20,257 bases of DNA from a virus: IMG/VR virus record IMGVR_UViG_3300030090_004500, positions 1 to 20,257 of that record. The stretch is one strand, 5' to 3'. Below, one piece after another: positions 1-6,822 of the stretch. The notes beneath the pieces are model-generated. The model was not told the origin of the DNA. It saw only the letters and a program-made list of their open reading frames with translations, and ran no database searches. The position numbers and the translations under genes are program-made. Each line of letters starts with the position of its first letter. Position 1 is the first letter of the stretch.

Positions 1-170
1 CGTGGAGGACAACCATAGGTGTCCCATGCATCCTTGACTACCTTACGCATTTCAATCACCCACTCACGAAACTCGTCGGGTGTCATCTCAAGTAAGTCTT
101 CAAAGTTACAATTCACATGTGAGTTTATCACATGCTCGTTACGCTCGTAGTAAGGTTTTGTTTTTATCAT
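1..170 (-). CDS. Unknown phage protein, N-terminal part only (runs off the window)
   Basis: An open frame begins with ATG at 168-170 and stays open to the window edge, giving about 56 codons; the 3' end lies outside. The start overlaps the gp46 stop codon (TGA at 167-169) as ATGA, so translation is probably coupled to gp46, and it belongs to the same operon. The visible protein starts MIKTKPYYERNEHV, contains the helical segment EFREWVIEMRKVVKDAW, and reaches a GCPPR motif at the edge. I do not recognise a domain and give no function. Its place directly after gp46 suggests a gene of the replication and recombination block, but that is inference only. That it is a real gene is supported by the stop-start overlap and by continuous coding with no other gene in this stretch. 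Confidence 0.7.
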   Translation of the reverse strand, partial: MIKTKPYYERNEHVINSHVNCNFEDLLEMTPDEFREWVIEMRKVVKDAWDTYGCPP

Positions 171-1879
171 TTTATCCTACTGAAGTTATTCTTCTTTTCA
201 AAGACGATATGGTTCTGGAACTTGTCCGTCATCGTATCAGACTTATGACTTATTACAAATATATTAGCACGACTTCCGAAGGATGTCAAGAGTTTTAAGA
301 ACTCTTCGGTGCCAACTGCATCGAGACTTGAATCAAATACCTCATCAAGAATCAACAGGTTACAGTTTACACTGTTCTTCAATCGTGCAATCTCACGCCA
401 TGCAAGAAGCAAAGATAGGTCGATACGCAATCGTTCACCTTCACTGAAACTGTGGTAGGTAAACTCGTCACGATGTCGGCTTTTGATTGTCTCGTTGAAG
501 TTTTCGTCAAGATTAAACTGACAAAAGAAGTCCATATCTGTCAAGTACTTGTTAATCAACTTGTTCATGATTGGCAAGTAGTGCTTGATAATCTTTGCTT
601 TGATTCCACTGTCCTTCAGAAGAGTAGAAGCAATGCTAAGATAATGCCTATCTTCAATGAGTTCCTTTCTTCTTTCGACATGATTCTTTCCTTCTCCAAG
701 CAACTGATTTAATTCTTTCTTTGTTTCCTCTACCTCAGTTCCTTCATTCAACACCGACTCGATGTTCTTTTGCATCTTATCAATATACTGGGAAGATGCA
801 CTAATTTCACTTTGCTTAGAAGAAATTTGCTTCTCAATATTTTGTATAGAATCAAGAATGGCATTAATGTCTCCCATTCTCTTTTCTGTGTATTCAATAC
901 TTTCTACTAGAGCATTTAACTCTTTCTCAACAGATTCTTGTTCTTTTGCCTTTTCTTCAAACACACAATCTTTATGGTGCTGTTGAATGTCTTGCTTACA
1001 CGATGGACATGTATCGTTCTCTTGATAAAACTTAATGTTCTTCTGAATTGCTTTTATTTTGCTATTCAATTCTCTCTCATTAGATTCAAGTTTAATCAAA
1101 GACTTTGGAATAACATCCTTATCGTTTATCTGAGACATGAGATTATCAATGCTTTTTTGTTGATTCTCGATATCTTCCTGAATTTCTTTTATTTGCTTAC
1201 GAGACTCTTCAATTTCTGATTGATACTTCTCTACAGAGTCACTTGATTTTTTCTCAAGAGTGTTAATGAGTTTTTGCTTTTCATCTACCTTACTCTTTGC
1301 AATCTCAATCTTCGTGTCAATGTCTTTTACATATTCCTTTGTCATTTGTAGTCTTGAACGAACCAGAGTATTCATAACGGAGAATACATCAATATCAAGA
1401 AGGTTCTCAACAACCAATCTTCTGTCTGCGGCACTTAACTGCATAAACGGAACATAGTTCGATGAACCAAGAATCACAACCTGACAGAATGATTTGTATG
1501 TCATCTTCAGAATCTGTTCTTCGAGAATCTTTTGGTAGTCTCTTGACTTTGCATCTTGGTCAAGCATCTCATCATTTTTATAAATTTCAAACTTCTTTGG
1601 TTTCAGACTTCGGAATACACGGTAACTATCATTCCCCACTAAAAATGTAATCTCAACCTCACAGTTCTTTTCGTTGATTGAGTTTGTTAGTTGGGGAATG
1701 TTAATACCACGAAACGATTTTCCAAACAAAGCAAATGTCAACGCATCAAGCATCGTTGACTTACCCGCACCATTCTCACCAGAGATGAGTGTGTTATGGT
1801 GTCTTGTCAAGTCAACGGTTGTCTTATTATTGCCAGTTGAGAGAAAGTTTCTCCAACTTAATGTTTGGAATATTATCAA
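167..1879 (-). CDS. 46: Recombination endonuclease subunit gp46 (Rad50/SbcC-like ATPase)
   Basis: This is the SMC-type ATPase that pairs with gp47 to resect DNA ends for T4-type recombination-dependent replication. Visible parts in order: N-terminal FLSTGN and Walker A GENGAGKS (residues 34-41); a long coiled coil rich in K, E and Q from about 170 to 430; a zinc-hook CPSC near residue 293 in its middle; the ABC signature FSEGERLR (478-485); Walker B LLILDE with the acidic pair at 512-513; and the H-loop VISHK near 545. Its 570 residues are close to T4 gp46. The start codon is TTG, not ATG. It overlaps the previous stop as TTGA, has AGGAGG 7 bases upstream, and an in-frame stop five codons further up excludes an ATG start. 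Identity is secure. Confidence 0.97.
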   Translation of the reverse strand: MIIFQTLSWRNFLSTGNNKTTVDLTRHHNTLISGENGAGKSTMLDALTFALFGKSFRGINIPQLTNSINEKNCEVEITFLVGNDSYRVFRSLKPKKFEIYKNDEMLDQDAKSRDYQKILEEQILKMTYKSFCQVVILGSSNYVPFMQLSAADRRLVVENLLDIDVFSVMNTLVRSRLQMTKEYVKDIDTKIEIAKSKVDEKQKLINTLEKKSSDSVEKYQSEIEESRKQIKEIQEDIENQQKSIDNLMSQINDKDVIPKSLIKLESNERELNSKIKAIQKNIKFYQENDTCPSCKQDIQQHHKDCVFEEKAKEQESVEKELNALVESIEYTEKRMGDINAILDSIQNIEKQISSKQSEISASSQYIDKMQKNIESVLNEGTEVEETKKELNQLLGEGKNHVERRKELIEDRHYLSIASTLLKDSGIKAKIIKHYLPIMNKLINKYLTDMDFFCQFNLDENFNETIKSRHRDEFTYHSFSEGERLRIDLSLLLAWREIARLKNSVNCNLLILDEVFDSSLDAVGTEEFLKLLTSFGSRANIFVISHKSDTMTDKFQNHIVFEKKNNFSRIK

Positions 1880-2427
1880 ACTAATGCCTCCTCATACCAT
1901 GTAGGCGTATCTGAGTATTTCCATTCTGCAAATCCTGTCTTCTCTCCAAGATAATATGCACGGTATGCTTTTACCGCATCCTCATTCTTGTATTCATCAG
2001 GCATTGCTTGTGCAAATGGTGTGATGTCATCTGCAATGGGAATGTTCACTGGTTTGCGATAACGAATAAGTGATAACATATCATCTGTCTTGTGAATTTT
2101 CTTGTATCGTTTACCATATTCTCTGCATAATTCTAGTGCATGTTCTGCTAACCAATAATAGTTTTTATCGTTTTCCATAACCCACTGAGTGCATGGATGT
2201 CCAACAAAAGATGCTTTGTATAACAAATCTTCCATCAATTGATATGGAGACTTCCATCGTTTGATTCTACGACCGTTCTTTGCATAGTCTGTCCATTCTG
2301 TTCCATCCAGAACACGATGTGCGGTTGATAACATCTGAGCAGACTCTACAATCATTTTTACCACATGCTTGTCGCATTGCATTTGTGCGGCGACTCGTGG
2401 ATTTTCATCCAAAACAAAAATATTCAC
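1876..2427 (-). CDS. Conserved phage protein of unknown function between genes 47 and 46
   Basis: This 183-residue protein has no function I can name. From memory, similar proteins occur in many tailed phages with the same conserved blocks: an N-terminal stretch with CDKHVVKM (18-25), E28 and STAHR (34-38); a central block with HPCTQW (77-82), NYYWLAEH (89-96) and YKKIHK; and a C-terminal block with AMPDEYK (141-147), AYRAYY (155-159) and a final TPTWY. The recurring Cys, His, Asp and Glu residues look like a metal or catalytic site, which is inference. There is no signal peptide or membrane segment. The start is GTG at 2425-2427, overlapping the gp47 stop as GTGA; the stop overlaps the gp46 start. 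Being locked between the two subunits of the Mre11/Rad50-like nuclease, it is probably made with them and may act on DNA ends or repair. Confidence 0.85.
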   Translation of the reverse strand: MNIFVLDENPRVAAQMQCDKHVVKMIVESAQMLSTAHRVLDGTEWTDYAKNGRRIKRWKSPYQLMEDLLYKASFVGHPCTQWVMENDKNYYWLAEHALELCREYGKRYKKIHKTDDMLSLIRYRKPVNIPIADDITPFAQAMPDEYKNEDAVKAYRAYYLGEKTGFAEWKYSDTPTWYEEALV

Positions 2428-3470
2428 AGTGACAAACTCTCCATATAAAGGTCTTTGATGAGTTTTTTCATACGAGGTTTATCCTCAACCTCTTCTATAG
2501 AATCAATCTCATTATTTATAAGTGTAACAGTATCTTGTGCTAAGTCAACTATTTCTTCCTTAGTCCACTCAGAATCAATAATATCTTCCACGACCGTAAT
2601 CTTTGCCACACCCGAATCATAGAGTTTATCCATAAACCTATCGAAACTATATGGATGCTTCTTCGACTCTACAAATATCTTTACATAAGCATCTTTAAGA
2701 TACGAGGCATCAACTTTATCTACATCAAGTGGTCCATCATTGTCGTTATACCGAAGTGTATGAAACATCTTGTATGGGTTTTCAATAAACTCTATTTCTC
2801 TTGTCTCTGTATCAAGAACATGAAAGCCCTTTGTCTCATTTAAGTCTGCAAATGTAATTTGATATTGTGTCCCCATATAATACACATTACCACTCTCTTG
2901 TCTGCAATGAAAATGACCAGATAAAACTTTTTCATACCTGTCAAAGTCTTCTGGATTCATACCACCATCAAACTTCACACCTCTCATAACATCATAACCC
3001 CTAAGTTCTAGATGTCCAATTAAGATTGGAGCAGAGGCAGTTTTGATAAAGTCAACCGAATCTTTTTGGTTTTCTTTATTCACCCAAGGAAGAAGTGCAA
3101 TATCTAAACCATCAAAGTTTACAACTTCTGGTTTTTCATATAATGTTAAATCATTATCAAACAATTCACGAATTGAATTCACCATATTTGTATTTCTATA
3201 GTAAACATCATGATTACCAAGAATACAATGCAATTCAATATTATTTTCGTGAAGTATATTTACAAATTTAGTTCGTACTTGATTTAGAATACTAAAGTTG
3301 ACAAACTTTCGTCTGTCCATCAAATCACCTGCATGAATAATTGTTTTGATGTCATTCTCTTTGAGATATGGAAAGAACACCTCATCAAAAAACTTCATGA
3401 AGTAATCGAAGAATAGTTGAGAGTCGCCTCTCGCACCAAAGTGAGTATCATTAATCAGTGCTATCTTCAT
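2424..3470 (-). CDS. 47: Recombination endonuclease subunit gp47 (Mre11/SbcD-like nuclease)
   Basis: This is the metallophosphoesterase subunit of the gp46/gp47 complex, which trims double-strand ends to start recombination. All expected metal-binding motifs are present in order: DTH (8-10), GDLMDRR (48-54), GNHD (85-88), GHLE (152-155) and GHFH (185-188). The C-terminal part from about 230 onward would contact gp46 and the DNA. Its 348 residues fit the T4 family (about 340). The ATG start lies 20 bases inside the end of gene 55, with GAGG placed six bases before it. The stop overlaps the next start as GTGA. Nothing is missing or broken. Confidence 0.97.
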   Translation of the reverse strand: MKIALINDTHFGARGDSQLFFDYFMKFFDEVFFPYLKENDIKTIIHAGDLMDRRKFVNFSILNQVRTKFVNILHENNIELHCILGNHDVYYRNTNMVNSIRELFDNDLTLYEKPEVVNFDGLDIALLPWVNKENQKDSVDFIKTASAPILIGHLELRGYDVMRGVKFDGGMNPEDFDRYEKVLSGHFHCRQESGNVYYMGTQYQITFADLNETKGFHVLDTETREIEFIENPYKMFHTLRYNDNDGPLDVDKVDASYLKDAYVKIFVESKKHPYSFDRFMDKLYDSGVAKITVVEDIIDSEWTKEEIVDLAQDTVTLINNEIDSIEEVEDKPRMKKLIKDLYMESLSL

Positions 3471-4041
3471 TAGTGTCCTCTAATACAGAATCTAAATTTG
3501 ATTTTTTAGTTTTCTTTTTCTTTTTCTTTGGTGTGAATTTTTCTATGTCCGTATCTGTCAACTGAAAATGTTTTGACAGCATTTCTTTACCTTTCATCTG
3601 GTCAGAAGAGTCGTCTTCAAAGTAATTTTTCCTATACCAATTCTTAATTGTAGAATCGTCCAGTTGTTCCATTGCTTTGTACTTAACATATGCCTGTTTC
3701 TTTTCCTTTTCAATTCTTCTAAGAAAAGCATAGTATATTATCTGAGTAAAATAAGAAAAAGGATTCTTTGATTTTTCTGGATTGAAGTTATGTGCATACA
3801 TTAAGCAATTTTCAATACCATCTCCTATCATTTCATCTCTGTAAGGATAATTGATAAAATTAGGTCTATACGACAAATGCTCTGCAATTTCTAGGAAACA
3901 TTGACCAATATAATCTGTAACTGGAGGTCGTGGTTCACCCGAATCTTCAGCATCATCAACAATCTTTTTCCACTCTATCATAGCGGCATAGAATTCTTTA
4001 TTATCAATATAATGGTTTGATTTTGGTTTTTCTTCACTCAT
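3451..4041 (-). CDS. 55: Late-transcription sigma factor gp55
   Basis: This small sigma-family protein gives host RNA polymerase specificity for T4-type late promoters (TATAAATA). Recognition rests on the central region from about 42 to 125, with INYPYRDEMIGDGIENCL (63-80) and FNPEKSKNPFSYFTQIIYYAF (86-106), the reduced sigma region 2 typical of the family, and on its position before gene 47. Its 196 residues compare with 185 in T4. The C-terminus is unusual: a lysine run (172-180) followed by a short acidic-hydrophobic segment LDSVLED (183-189). In T4, gp55 uses a C-terminal motif to bind the sliding clamp gp45, and this segment is a candidate for it (inference). The gene starts with ATG and a weak AAGG site after a 139-bp gap holding a probable promoter. 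The end overlaps gene 47 by 20 bases. Confidence 0.93.
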   Translation of the reverse strand: MSEEKPKSNHYIDNKEFYAAMIEWKKIVDDAEDSGEPRPPVTDYIGQCFLEIAEHLSYRPNFINYPYRDEMIGDGIENCLMYAHNFNPEKSKNPFSYFTQIIYYAFLRRIEKEKKQAYVKYKAMEQLDDSTIKNWYRKNYFEDDSSDQMKGKEMLSKHFQLTDTDIEKFTPKKKKKKTKKSNLDSVLEDTNEDSTD

Positions 4042-4067
4042 AACATATTAAATCCTTGTTTTAACCC

Positions 4068-4073
4068 ATTATA
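4068..4073 (-). promoter_or_regulatory. Probable -10 element for gene 55
   Basis: On the minus strand this reads TATAAT and sits about 27 bases before the gene 55 ATG, which would give a leader of about 20 bases. The matching -35 at 17 bp is weak (TGTGCA), and no clear MotA box is visible, so the promoter type (early or middle) is uncertain. Its place in the only long gap of this block supports it. Confidence 0.4.
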
Positions 4074-4115
4074 TAACAAAAAGTAAAAAATGCACACAAA
4101 AAATTAAAAAATGTA

Positions 4116-4144
4116 TTGACAATTTTCAAAATGTCCATTACAAT
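4116..4144 (+). promoter_or_regulatory. Possible sigma70 promoter on the opposite (plus) strand
   Basis: The plus strand reads TTGACA, a 17-bp spacer, then TACAAT: 11 of 12 consensus positions at the best spacing. Transcription would start near 4151 and run antisense to the Sm-like gene and uvsW. I see no gene on the plus strand, so the product would be an antisense or small RNA. It could also be chance in AT-rich DNA. Confidence 0.35.
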
Positions 4145-4146
4145 CA

Positions 4147-4177
4147 TCTGTGCCAACAGACATAAGGAACACTTATG
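4147..4177 (-). other. Two adjacent small hairpins after the Sm-like gene
   Basis: Directly after the stop codon of the Sm-like gene, two perfect inverted repeats lie side by side. Plus-strand arms are CATAAG / CTTATG (4161-4166, 4172-4177; 5-base loop) and TCTGT / ACAGA (4147-4151, 4156-4160; 4-base loop). No T-run follows on the minus strand, so this is not a classical terminator. It could be an RNA processing or stability element, or a protein site. Confidence 0.45.
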
Positions 4178-4180
4178 ATC

Positions 4181-4885
4181 TTACTCTAAGTAATCATTAA
4201 GGTCTGGACTCCAATCAGTCCAAATATTCCCAAAGTCGTCTTCTTTTTGTCTTTTTTCATCATCGCCAGTATACTTTGGTTTATTTTTTTTAAAACTTCC
4301 ATTGATATTGTCAATTAAATTGAGAATGTCTTCCTCTTCAATTATACCTGATTCTACCAATGTCATTAAAGCCTCTGGTGGAAGCATTAAACTCATAGTA
4401 ATAAAGTTTTTATGATGCTTATCTTCCATCTCATCAATATCATCAAGAAGGTCTGGATTTTCATCGATTGCATCTTTCATCATATCAATTAAATTTTCAA
4501 TATCTTCTGGCATCATATCTTCGCCAATTTTTTTGTTTTCCATATCCTTTTTCATTAATTCTGTAAGATTGGTGATTTTAGGTTCTTTGGTATCAACATC
4601 TTCTTTTTCTTTCTCAAGACCATATAATTCCATAACATCACTGTCTGGAACCAGATAAGTTGCAATATAATCTTTCGGAAGTCTAGTTTCGATTTCGTTT
4701 GTGTGTGCTAGCCAATTCTTAAGAACAGTTAATTCCCTTTGTCTACCAGAGTATGGATCCATAACAATTCGAGTCATAAAAACCATAGGTCTTTCGATTA
4801 TAATTTTACCTCTCTCTTCTCCCTTAAGTTTGGCAATAATTTGCTCTCCACTTTTTAATTTTAAAATTCTATAGGGTGTTTTCAT
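4181..4885 (-). CDS. Sm-like N-terminal domain protein with acidic C-terminal region
   Basis: The first 75 residues (RILKLKSGEQIIAKLKG and then IIIERPM) have the alternating strand pattern and G-E-x-I motif of the Sm/LSm fold. Sm-like proteins are known from marine T4-like phages. The rest is acidic and probably helical, rich in D, E, M and N, with MMPEDIENLIDMMKDAID and a later MSLMLPPEALMTLVESGII. The last residues are DLNDYLE, resembling a clamp-binding tail. The role is unknown: RNA binding is the usual Sm job, and the position between uvsW and gene 55 would also suit a late-transcription partner (inference). Of two possible ATGs, 4883-4885 is chosen because AGGAG lies nine bases upstream; the ATG at 4892-4894 directly abuts that site. 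The gene lies 15 bases after uvsW and is followed by two hairpins. Confidence 0.8.
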   Translation of the reverse strand: MKTPYRILKLKSGEQIIAKLKGEERGKIIIERPMVFMTRIVMDPYSGRQRELTVLKNWLAHTNEIETRLPKDYIATYLVPDSDVMELYGLEKEKEDVDTKEPKITNLTELMKKDMENKKIGEDMMPEDIENLIDMMKDAIDENPDLLDDIDEMEDKHHKNFITMSLMLPPEALMTLVESGIIEEEDILNLIDNINGSFKKNKPKYTGDDEKRQKEDDFGNIWTDWSPDLNDYLE

Positions 4886-4900
4886 TTTAAGCATCTCCTA

Positions 4901-6391
4901 TCATAATCGGATTTTAACCATCTTGAAAGAAAAGTTCTCTCTATTATATATCTTAATTCGTTCACCAAGATGTTTCATGGTGTGGTTTACATACTTCTTA
5001 AACTGTAAATTATCACTGATGTCATATAATTTTACTTTTTCTTTTGTTTCAGACTTTCTCAGACCTCTACCTATCGACTGTAAAACACGAATTACAGATT
5101 TGGATGGAGATGAGAAGATAATATTGTGAATGTTCTTAATATTGATACCAGTAGAACATGTTCCGTATGATGCTACCAATATGGCATTTTCTTCCTTATC
5201 AATAATCTTTCGTATGAATTCTCTCTGCTCGGTTTCTGTTCCTCCGTGAATAAAGAACACCTTCTTATCAGGACACTCCTGTCGAATCTGTTCAAAAAGA
5301 GGTTTACCATGAGACTCCACATAATTGAACAGAAGAAGAGTGTTTCCTTTTACCTTACAACAGAGACTTACTAGGAAGTCGTTTCTTTTCTTATTACCCA
5401 CAATCCATTTAATTTCATCTTGGTATGGGGCTCTTTTGATTTCTTCGATATCTTTGACTGGATATTGTAGATTGATACACTCAATGTCCAACTCAGAAAG
5501 AAGACTTTTATCTATAAGTTTCTTGGTTGATGTTACATTGAATACCCTACCAAACAAACCTTCAATTACAAGTTTGTGTGTAAATGTGCCGTCCAGAGTC
5601 CCTGTAGTCCCCACACGGTACGGACAATCCACTAATTTCGTCATAAGAGTGGTAAGAGACTTTGATTTGAAAAGATGACATTCATCTCCGAATATCGCAC
5701 CAAATTGCTCAAAGTATTTCTCTGGCATCTTGTATATACTTTGCCATGTAGAGATGATGACTCTCTTCTCTGTATTCTTATCCTGCCCTGCATATATCGT
5801 GTGACAGTTATCTTCTACATTCCAGTGGTCTTTTGACGAATAATCATCAAAGTCATTGTACATCTGAGATACCAATCCAGTGGTAGGAACAATAATCAAT
5901 ATCTTCTTATCATGTCCCAGAAGTTCTTGGTAATATCGAATTAATGTGTAAATAATCAAAGACTTACCACTACCAGTAGGAGACAACAAAAGGCATCTCT
6001 CGTGGTTGATAGCGTGAACAATTGCATCGATTTGATGCTGGTGGGGTTTGATTCTCGAAGAACCAACAGTAGGTTTTAGTTTCTCATTGATATACAAAGA
6101 AACATCTTTCTCTGTCATCTTTGATTTGGATGAGGGAATATTGTTTACTACGGTATAGTTTCTTTCTGCCGCAAACTTTAGAACATATTCTTTCAGTCCA
6201 CTGTATATCTTCTGAGTGTGTATGTTGTATAATCTTATTTGACCATCCCACATCTTATTTCTATATGCAGGAATGTATTTGTAGTTTGGAACGGTGAAAG
6301 TAAAGAAGTCACTCAGTTCTTTGCAAATTCCTCTGTCACAAATCACTTTAATATAAACAGAATCTACTGGATGTATTTCTATTTCACTCAT
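4901..6391 (-). CDS. uvsW: DNA/RNA helicase UvsW (superfamily 2)
   Basis: UvsW in T4 is a RecG-like helicase that unwinds R-loops at origins, regresses stalled forks and migrates branches. Helicase motifs are clear: Walker A PTGSGKS (138-144), motif Ia VPTTGLVSQM, DECH box (236-239), motif III GTTGT (261-265), motif V STGINIKNIHN, and motif VI QSIGRGLRK (438-446). The N-terminal 110 residues correspond to the substrate-binding domain of T4 UvsW. Length is 496 residues against about 503 in T4. The start is set at ATG 6389-6391, which overlaps the uvsY stop as ATGA. A frame 24 bases longer would need TTG and has less support. It is coupled to uvsY and followed at 15 bases by the Sm-like gene. 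Confidence 0.95.
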   Translation of the reverse strand: MSEIEIHPVDSVYIKVICDRGICKELSDFFTFTVPNYKYIPAYRNKMWDGQIRLYNIHTQKIYSGLKEYVLKFAAERNYTVVNNIPSSKSKMTEKDVSLYINEKLKPTVGSSRIKPHQHQIDAIVHAINHERCLLLSPTGSGKSLIIYTLIRYYQELLGHDKKILIIVPTTGLVSQMYNDFDDYSSKDHWNVEDNCHTIYAGQDKNTEKRVIISTWQSIYKMPEKYFEQFGAIFGDECHLFKSKSLTTLMTKLVDCPYRVGTTGTLDGTFTHKLVIEGLFGRVFNVTSTKKLIDKSLLSELDIECINLQYPVKDIEEIKRAPYQDEIKWIVGNKKRNDFLVSLCCKVKGNTLLLFNYVESHGKPLFEQIRQECPDKKVFFIHGGTETEQREFIRKIIDKEENAILVASYGTCSTGINIKNIHNIIFSSPSKSVIRVLQSIGRGLRKSETKEKVKLYDISDNLQFKKYVNHTMKHLGERIKIYNRENFSFKMVKIRL

Positions 6392-6822
6392 GTACCATTT
6401 GTAAACTTCAGCCAATCAATCGTTGAACGAATAGACCATTGTCTATTGTTAATAATTTTGATTACATTCTCTAGGTAGTTTACCTTTTCCTTTTGCAATA
6501 AAATTCTATTGGAGAGTTTGATTATATCTTCATCAGATTCTATAAATTTGTCTATGTCTGTCTTTAGAATTTGTAAATCAAACGGCTCCCATCCCATATC
6601 TTCAAGTTCTTCTTGACTAATTTTTCCTGTATAGTATAGCCATTTATTCCTCTTTAGAACATTGAAGTCATTTTGTAATTTGCCAAGAATGAGTTTTTCA
6701 TCACTATGAAGCACTAAGTATTTATTATGAAGTTGTGGAGTCTTCATAGATTCAATATCTAATTCTGTCTTGTCCATTACCACATCGGCAGAAACCATTT
6801 TTCTTATTTCTTCTAGATTCAT
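6388..6822 (-). CDS. uvsY: Recombination mediator UvsY
   Basis: UvsY helps load the UvsX recombinase on single-stranded DNA coated with gp32. The 144-residue protein (137 in T4) is small, lysine- and glutamate-rich and helical. It begins MNLEEIRKMVSADVVMDKTELD, which aligns well with the T4 N-terminus, and has the central KLQNDFNVLKRNKWLYYTGK that matches the basic, tyrosine-containing segment of T4 UvsY. Position before uvsW gives further support. The ATG has AAGGAG eight bases upstream and a strong sigma70-type promoter just before it. The end overlaps the uvsW start by 4 bases. Confidence 0.9.
   Translation of the reverse strand: MNLEEIRKMVSADVVMDKTELDIESMKTPQLHNKYLVLHSDEKLILGKLQNDFNVLKRNKWLYYTGKISQEELEDMGWEPFDLQILKTDIDKFIESDEDIIKLSNRILLQKEKVNYLENVIKIINNRQWSIRSTIDWLKFTNGT

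Follow-up and report, generated by a model that had tools for sequence, protein, structure and literature searches.

A candidate pyrimidine dimer DNA glycosylase gene held between the gp47 and gp46 nuclease genes of a viral genome fragment

Introduction

A small gene that overlaps both genes of an Mre11/Rad50-like nuclease raises the question of whether its product is a further part of that nuclease or an enzyme that has come to be expressed beside it. Such a gene, here called gene X, lies in the window analyzed in this work, a stretch of 20,257 nucleotides that makes up positions 1 to 20,257 of the 23,227-base IMG/VR virus record IMGVR_UViG_3300030090_004500. An earlier note on the window considered gene X to belong to a family widespread in tailed phages and without a function, and proposed either a third factor for end processing or a repair enzyme. 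We conclude that X is probably a divergent member of the T4 endonuclease V superfamily, a DNA glycosylase/AP lyase most likely directed at UV-induced pyrimidine dimers. This would replace the label “unknown” with a testable enzyme, and would make X a candidate enzyme for repairing UV damage without light in marine T4-like phages, from which the classical denV gene has been reported absent. We prefer to think of X as an ordinary repair gene in an unusual place, rather than as a new part of the recombination machinery.

Gene X and its overlaps with gp47 and gp46

The gene and its two stop/start overlaps are present as the earlier note had described them (Table 1), and both overlaps recur in all nine complete relatives that carry the same locked arrangement, the gp47-X overlap as GTGA in eight and as ATGA in L003, and the X-gp46 overlap as TTGA throughout. 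Protein X shares 74–84% identity with its counterparts in these relatives at a dN/dS of 0.06–0.18 which, together with the retained overlaps, identifies X as a real, constrained gene. The ribosome-binding-like sequence in its 3′ end stands seven bases ahead of the gp46 start. Four-base overlaps between neighboring open reading frames are not rare in the window, further examples being 10249–10896/10893–11636 and 11887–12276/12273–13811, and a scan of the region for promoters and terminators gave scores at about chance level. The weak start codons inside the overlaps are also kept, TTG for gp46 in nine of nine relatives and GTG for X in eight of nine (L001–L006, L008–L010), perhaps for coupling.

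Table 1. Features of the gp47-X-gp46 region and of protein X in the window.
Feature	Position	Strand	Basis
Gene X, 183-residue PF03013 (Pyr_excise) protein, phrog_624 clade	1876..2427	-	GTG start; Pfam and PHROG match, AF2 model, structural alignment
gp47, SbcD/Mre11-like nuclease	2424..3470	-	phrog_100, 8.3e-96; Metallophos
gp46, SbcC/Rad50-like ATPase	167..1879	-	phrog_77, 1.1e-169
GTGA stop/start overlap, gp47-X	2424..2427	-	X GTG 2427–2425 over gp47 stop TGA 2426–2424
TTGA stop/start overlap, X-gp46	1876..1879	-	X stop TGA 1878–1876 over gp46 TTG 1879–1877
GAGGAGG, ribosome-binding-like site for gp46 in the 3′ end of X	1887..1893	-	Read from the sequence
N-terminus Met1-Asn2-Ile3-Phe4	2416..2427	-	N2 in 109 of 111 relatives; Met1 at the place of T4 mature Thr2 (structural alignment)
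Predicted active-site helix D19-K20-H21...K24...E28...Q31	2335..2373	-	E28 as counterpart of T4 Glu23
H77-P78	2194..2199	-	111 of 111 relatives; hhalign register (not significant) with HP of cellular PF03013; presumed counterpart of DenV His56
E103...R107...H112 block	2092..2121	-	hhalign register (not significant) with E..RG[YF] of other PF03013 clades
C-terminal P-x-W motif, also in T4 endonuclease V	1897..1905	-	Alignments

Family assignment

X passes the gathering cut-off of the Pfam family PF03013 (pyrimidine dimer DNA glycosylase) with 34.1 bits against the required 23 (E 3.7e-8). When its relatives were scanned singly, the same family was found at E≤0.01 in 23 of the 29 viral proteins and in all 22 cellular ones, and no other Pfam family was found in this set. 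PHROGs places X in phrog_624 under the label “DNA binding protein”, and a search of NCBIfam with X returned nothing.

Profiles of our own making did not recover the relationship. An hhalign comparison of 29 X proteins with 19 proteins of the T4 endonuclease V (DenV) type was not significant; with HMMs built from 30 cellular PF03013 and the 19 DenV proteins, the best E was 0.016 for X and 0.042 for shuffled X, which is likewise not significant, and with a joint PF03013/DenV profile both reversed and shuffled controls outscored X. Neither X nor a profile of 29 X rows recovered T4 endonuclease V in sequence searches of the PDB. The Pfam model may be more sensitive than these home-made profiles, or may include X-like seeds. 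Since our profiles miss the relationship by sequence alone, it is the Pfam model, the fold and the register of the motifs that jointly make the case for common descent. Cellular PF03013 proteins resemble X in their Pfam family, conserved Glu, HP motif and unprocessed-looking Met start, and differ from it in that their profile similarity to X is not significant and their open frames are often longer; the MR[IL]W start of the 30 extracted proteins is not independent evidence, because the extraction pattern required such a start.

Contrary to the earlier note, the family is not without a proposed function; it carries a name in Pfam, in several records and in the published literature. In the accessible part of a 2023 paper, ORF91 of cyanophage S-CREM1 and its cyanophage homologues are assigned by database search as “overlooked” pyrimidine dimer DNA glycosylases (PMC9964418), and this name for the cyanophage homologues of X is thus already in print. 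SCREM1_91 belongs to the X clade and is a tblastn match of X at 36.6% identity; unlike gene X of the window, it lies ~85 kb from gp46/gp47.

Predicted structure

AF2 models were of high confidence both for X (pLDDT 95.0) and for a bacterial relative from Endozoicomonas (pLDDT 96.3), and the fold search that had been proposed for X gave T4 endonuclease V (PDB 2end, 1enj, 1enk) as the best VIA-align match of each. Among the 934 chains compared with the X model, T4 endonuclease V took the first three places (Z 8.5, 8.4 and 8.3, with 118–119 of its 137 residues aligned) and the next, unrelated chain reached Z 4.0; among the 61 compared with the Endozoicomonas model the values were 9.1, 9.0 and 8.8, followed by 3.7, the chains in both cases being those ranked highest by Foldseek. 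A Z of 8–9 lies barely past the level that VIA-align describes as possibly a common arrangement, and chance can lift helical proteins higher. Plain Foldseek matched neither model to a PDB entry at E≤1e-3; its top entry for the Endozoicomonas model was T4 endonuclease V at a non-significant E of 0.47. Identity over the structural alignments of the two models with T4 endonuclease V is at most 13%, and X differs further from the T4 enzyme by an extra hairpin at about residues 43–59. A comparable case is ORF11 of Alteromonas phage R7M, which the available text of its description identifies as a pyrimidine dimer glycosylase on structural grounds (TM-score 0.795), its sequence showing no homology to the T4 enzyme (PMC8265664). 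With family match and fold in agreement, we regard the assignment of X to this family and fold as well supported and very probably correct.

A Foldseek search of viral models produced ten significant matches, and those among them that carry a name have no informative one. This search returned two longer BFVD proteins with an X-like part, A0A1V0S9G0 of the giant virus Catovirus (381 residues) and A0A0B5GYN6 of Vibrio phage phi 3 (346 residues), which are possible fusions.

Conserved residues and the putative active site

Conservation was read from 230 sequences of at least 140 residues from viral contigs, phages, bacteria and archaea, thinned at 70% identity to 111. K24, E28, Q31, H77, P78, W82, R107, H112 and Y155 are invariant in all 111, and N2 (109), H21 (109) and D19 (108) are nearly so. 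Nine residues had been singled out as conserved and as a possible metal or catalytic site (C18, D19, H21, E28, H37, H77, C79, H96 and H112); all nine are at the positions given, and the conservation of D19, H21, E28, H77 and H112 is borne out, whereas H37 (84 of 111), C18 (83), C79 (64) and H96 (59) vary. The several conserved histidines would suit a metal-dependent nuclease with a Cys/His site, a reading that we consider highly improbable given the variation of both cysteines and of H37 and H96, and a metal site is not supported. The matched fold works through an N-terminal amine and a Glu and, to our knowledge, uses no metal.

The structural alignments of both models open at model residue 1 and at chain residue 2 of T4 endonuclease V, so that Met1 of X occupies the place of the mature N-terminal Thr2 of the T4 enzyme. 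X starts with Met-Asn, in contrast to the processed Thr-Arg start of T4 endonuclease V; an N-terminal Met that precedes Asn is not expected to be removed, given the specificity of the aminopeptidase. The stretch D19-x-H21-x6-E28 of X has the order and spacing of D14-x-H16-x6-E23 of DenV, which is invariant in the 19 DenV proteins, and the non-significant hhalign registers still pair these stretches, with E28 of X on E23 of DenV. X shares with the phage-borne T4 enzyme its Pfam family, its predicted fold, a D-x-H-x6-E helix that bears the catalytic Glu in T4, the N-terminal register and a C-terminal P-x-W. In the T4 enzyme, the available part of one study describes a mechanism based on the N-terminal Thr amine and an active-site Glu (PMC3285167); as that source numbers the processed protein, its Glu22 is the Glu23 referred to here.

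The PHROG label, and records of the same name, would fit a catalytically dead DNA-binding protein. Binding alone would not call for the retention of E28, H77 and H112 in 111 of 111 relatives and of H21 in 109, across bacteria, archaea and phages, and this makes the loss of catalysis very unlikely. The repair enzyme suggested in the earlier note gains support from the PF03013 match, the predicted T4 endonuclease V fold and the conserved, putatively catalytic Glu, and by analogy with T4 endonuclease V enzymatic activity of X is likely.

The nature of the substrate is a separate matter. Thr2, Arg3 and Arg22, invariant in 19 of 19 DenV proteins, correspond to Met1, Asn2 and Val27 of X, and X is therefore not a DenV orthologue. 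The replacement of these residues, and the invariant set that X has of its own (K24, Q31, W82, R107, H112 and Y155, of which K24 and H112 set it apart from the T4 enzyme), could indicate that X has retained the T4 endonuclease V fold but targets a different lesion or a modified base, or serves as an AP lyase only. We think this rather unlikely; the gene neighborhoods that bear on it are described below.

Linkage and co-variation with gp46 and gp47

Linkage was surveyed in 55 records, made up of 48 hand-picked viral contigs (mostly ≥20 kb, from those behind 233 loci) and seven phage records; gp46 was not seen in 33 of the 55, most of which are fragments. Among the 22 that carry gp46, X is locked between 47 and 46 in six, within 4 kb in four (P-SSM2, G348, G358 and G366) and more than 18 kb away in 12, so that the linkage to 46/47 does not extend to the family as a whole. 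One record of 141 kb (G359) carries X and lacks both gp46 and gp47. In the tree, the locked set of ten rows, the window included, forms one side of a branch supported 99/98, and the 46–47 lock on X is an arrangement of one clade. Nested within that clade is L007, whose X stands beside a GMP-reductase-like gene and small open reading frames (named by eye), with neither gp46 nor gp47 on its 36-kb contig.

Within the ten locked loci, the distances of gp46 follow those of gp47 closely (Mantel r 0.91, p 0.0003), whereas those of X follow neither gp46 (r −0.32) nor gp47 (r −0.24); as the nine relatives in this set were picked for their similarity to X, the X distances span a narrowed range. Between L001 and L004, for example, the divergence is 13% for X and 51% for gp46, and between the window and L003 it is 22% for X and 8% for gp46; in L002, L004 and L010 the contig ends within gp46. 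The discordance indicates that X has been exchanged independently of its neighbors, and suggests gene replacement within a tightly overlapping operon (window 1876–2427, L001–L010). For this reason two perfect stop/start overlaps do not amount to a shared complex.

A structural role of X in the gp46/gp47 nuclease is accordingly unlikely, and a dedicated third subunit or accessory factor, the other proposal of the earlier note, appears very improbable. Such a factor would suit the retention of both overlaps in nine of nine relatives and the recurrent proximity of X to recombination genes in other branches (L248, L249, L267, L279 and L235), where the label “near” needs at least four changes on the tree; of the 24 gp46 loci in this proximity survey, L252 and L253 are weak and probably spurious. 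This repeated proximity is a weak hint of shared use. A dedicated subunit does not fit the distant position of X in 12 of 22 records, the absence of co-variation, the case of L007 and the existence of bacterial and archaeal relatives; the link to 46/47 is lineage-specific, and X is exchanged independently even inside the locked clade. Homologues found mostly away from recombination genes and with a clear unrelated fold had been named beforehand as grounds for giving up the subunit idea, and this is largely what the data show. No description of the 47-X-46 arrangement was found among the open-licence papers covered by the search.

Distribution and cellular neighbors

The family is indeed widespread in tailed phages, with relatives of X in 619 of 50,697 phage records, the majority from cyanophages, vibriophages and Acinetobacter phages, and it occurs also on long bacterial contigs and in archaeal genomes. 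The cellular neighbors are for the most part housekeeping genes, and a search for a common partner among 143 neighboring proteins of 42 cellular loci, from which proteins of more than 900 residues such as UvrA were excluded, found none past lineage-bound housekeeping genes. Loci L189, L190, L191 and L214 are exceptions: in three Rhodobacteraceae MAGs, probably of one lineage, the uvrA gene ends 46–47 nt upstream of X (uvrA was called by Pfam in one and by identical opening residues and length in the other two), and in a Nitrospina MAG uvrB directly adjoins X. Two lineages with UV-repair neighbors would be unusual by chance, according to a rough estimate from about 25 lineages, two neighbors each and some eight UV-repair genes per 3,000. 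In a planctomycete MAG and a Clostridium MAG, from distant phyla (L217 and L230), X adjoins 2-thiouracil desulfurase-DUF1722 genes, which makes a link to modified bases conceivable and would favor the other-lesion substrate considered above; the uvrA and uvrB neighbors, the many cyanophage matches and the alternation with DenV suit UV lesions at least equally.

That alternation was seen from both sides. A search for DenV in 17 X-bearing records found none, T4 serving as the positive control, and a search for X in 26 DenV records, mostly from close relatives of T4, likewise found none, with one X-bearing record as the positive control. As no record in either set was found to hold both, the two look like alternatives. 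The available portion of a 2010 review states that no cyanophage genome was found to carry denV and expects another repair route (PMC2984593); P-SSM2, a phage in a table of that portion, carries X. Elsewhere, the accessible text of a jumbo-phage survey counts the T4-type enzyme among the repair genes that occur sporadically (PMC7824862), and that of a 2007 ocean survey reports new DenV diversity (PMC1821046).

Proposed function

By analogy with T4 endonuclease V, a pyrimidine dimer substrate is plausible for X, slightly favored over its alternatives. X would bind damaged duplex DNA, and the α-amine of Met1, at the place of the mature Thr2 of T4, would attack C1′ of the damaged nucleotide, with Glu28 as acid/base. 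The resulting imine intermediate would be cut by β-elimination to leave a nick, to be finished by phage or host enzymes. In the lineage of the window X would be translated in step with gp47 and gp46 without being an obligate subunit, and such coupling could subject lesion nicking and recombinational repair to a shared control of expression.

More tentatively, and with less confidence than in the dimer substrate itself, X may represent a second branch of the T4 endonuclease V fold that separated long ago and now extends over phages, bacteria and archaea, with an active site of its own that comprises an unprocessed Met1-Asn2 nucleophile, E28 and the invariant K24 one helical turn away. It could then be the dimer-repair gene missing from cyanophages in the available portion of the 2010 review (PMC2984593), captured into the Mre11/Rad50 operon in the lineage of the window.

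The surrounding recombination block

The block around X comprises uvsY (phrog_231), a UvsW-like helicase (phrog_16), a late sigma factor gene (phrog_234), gp47, X and gp46, and with the first three lying directly upstream of gp47-X-gp46 (window 3451–6822) it unites recombination genes with late transcription. Flanked by the helicase and late sigma factor genes, at 4181–4894, is a gene for an acidic protein of 237 residues that has only weak PHROG matches (phrog_527, 471 and 431), and counterparts of like start and size occupy the same place in L248 and L267.
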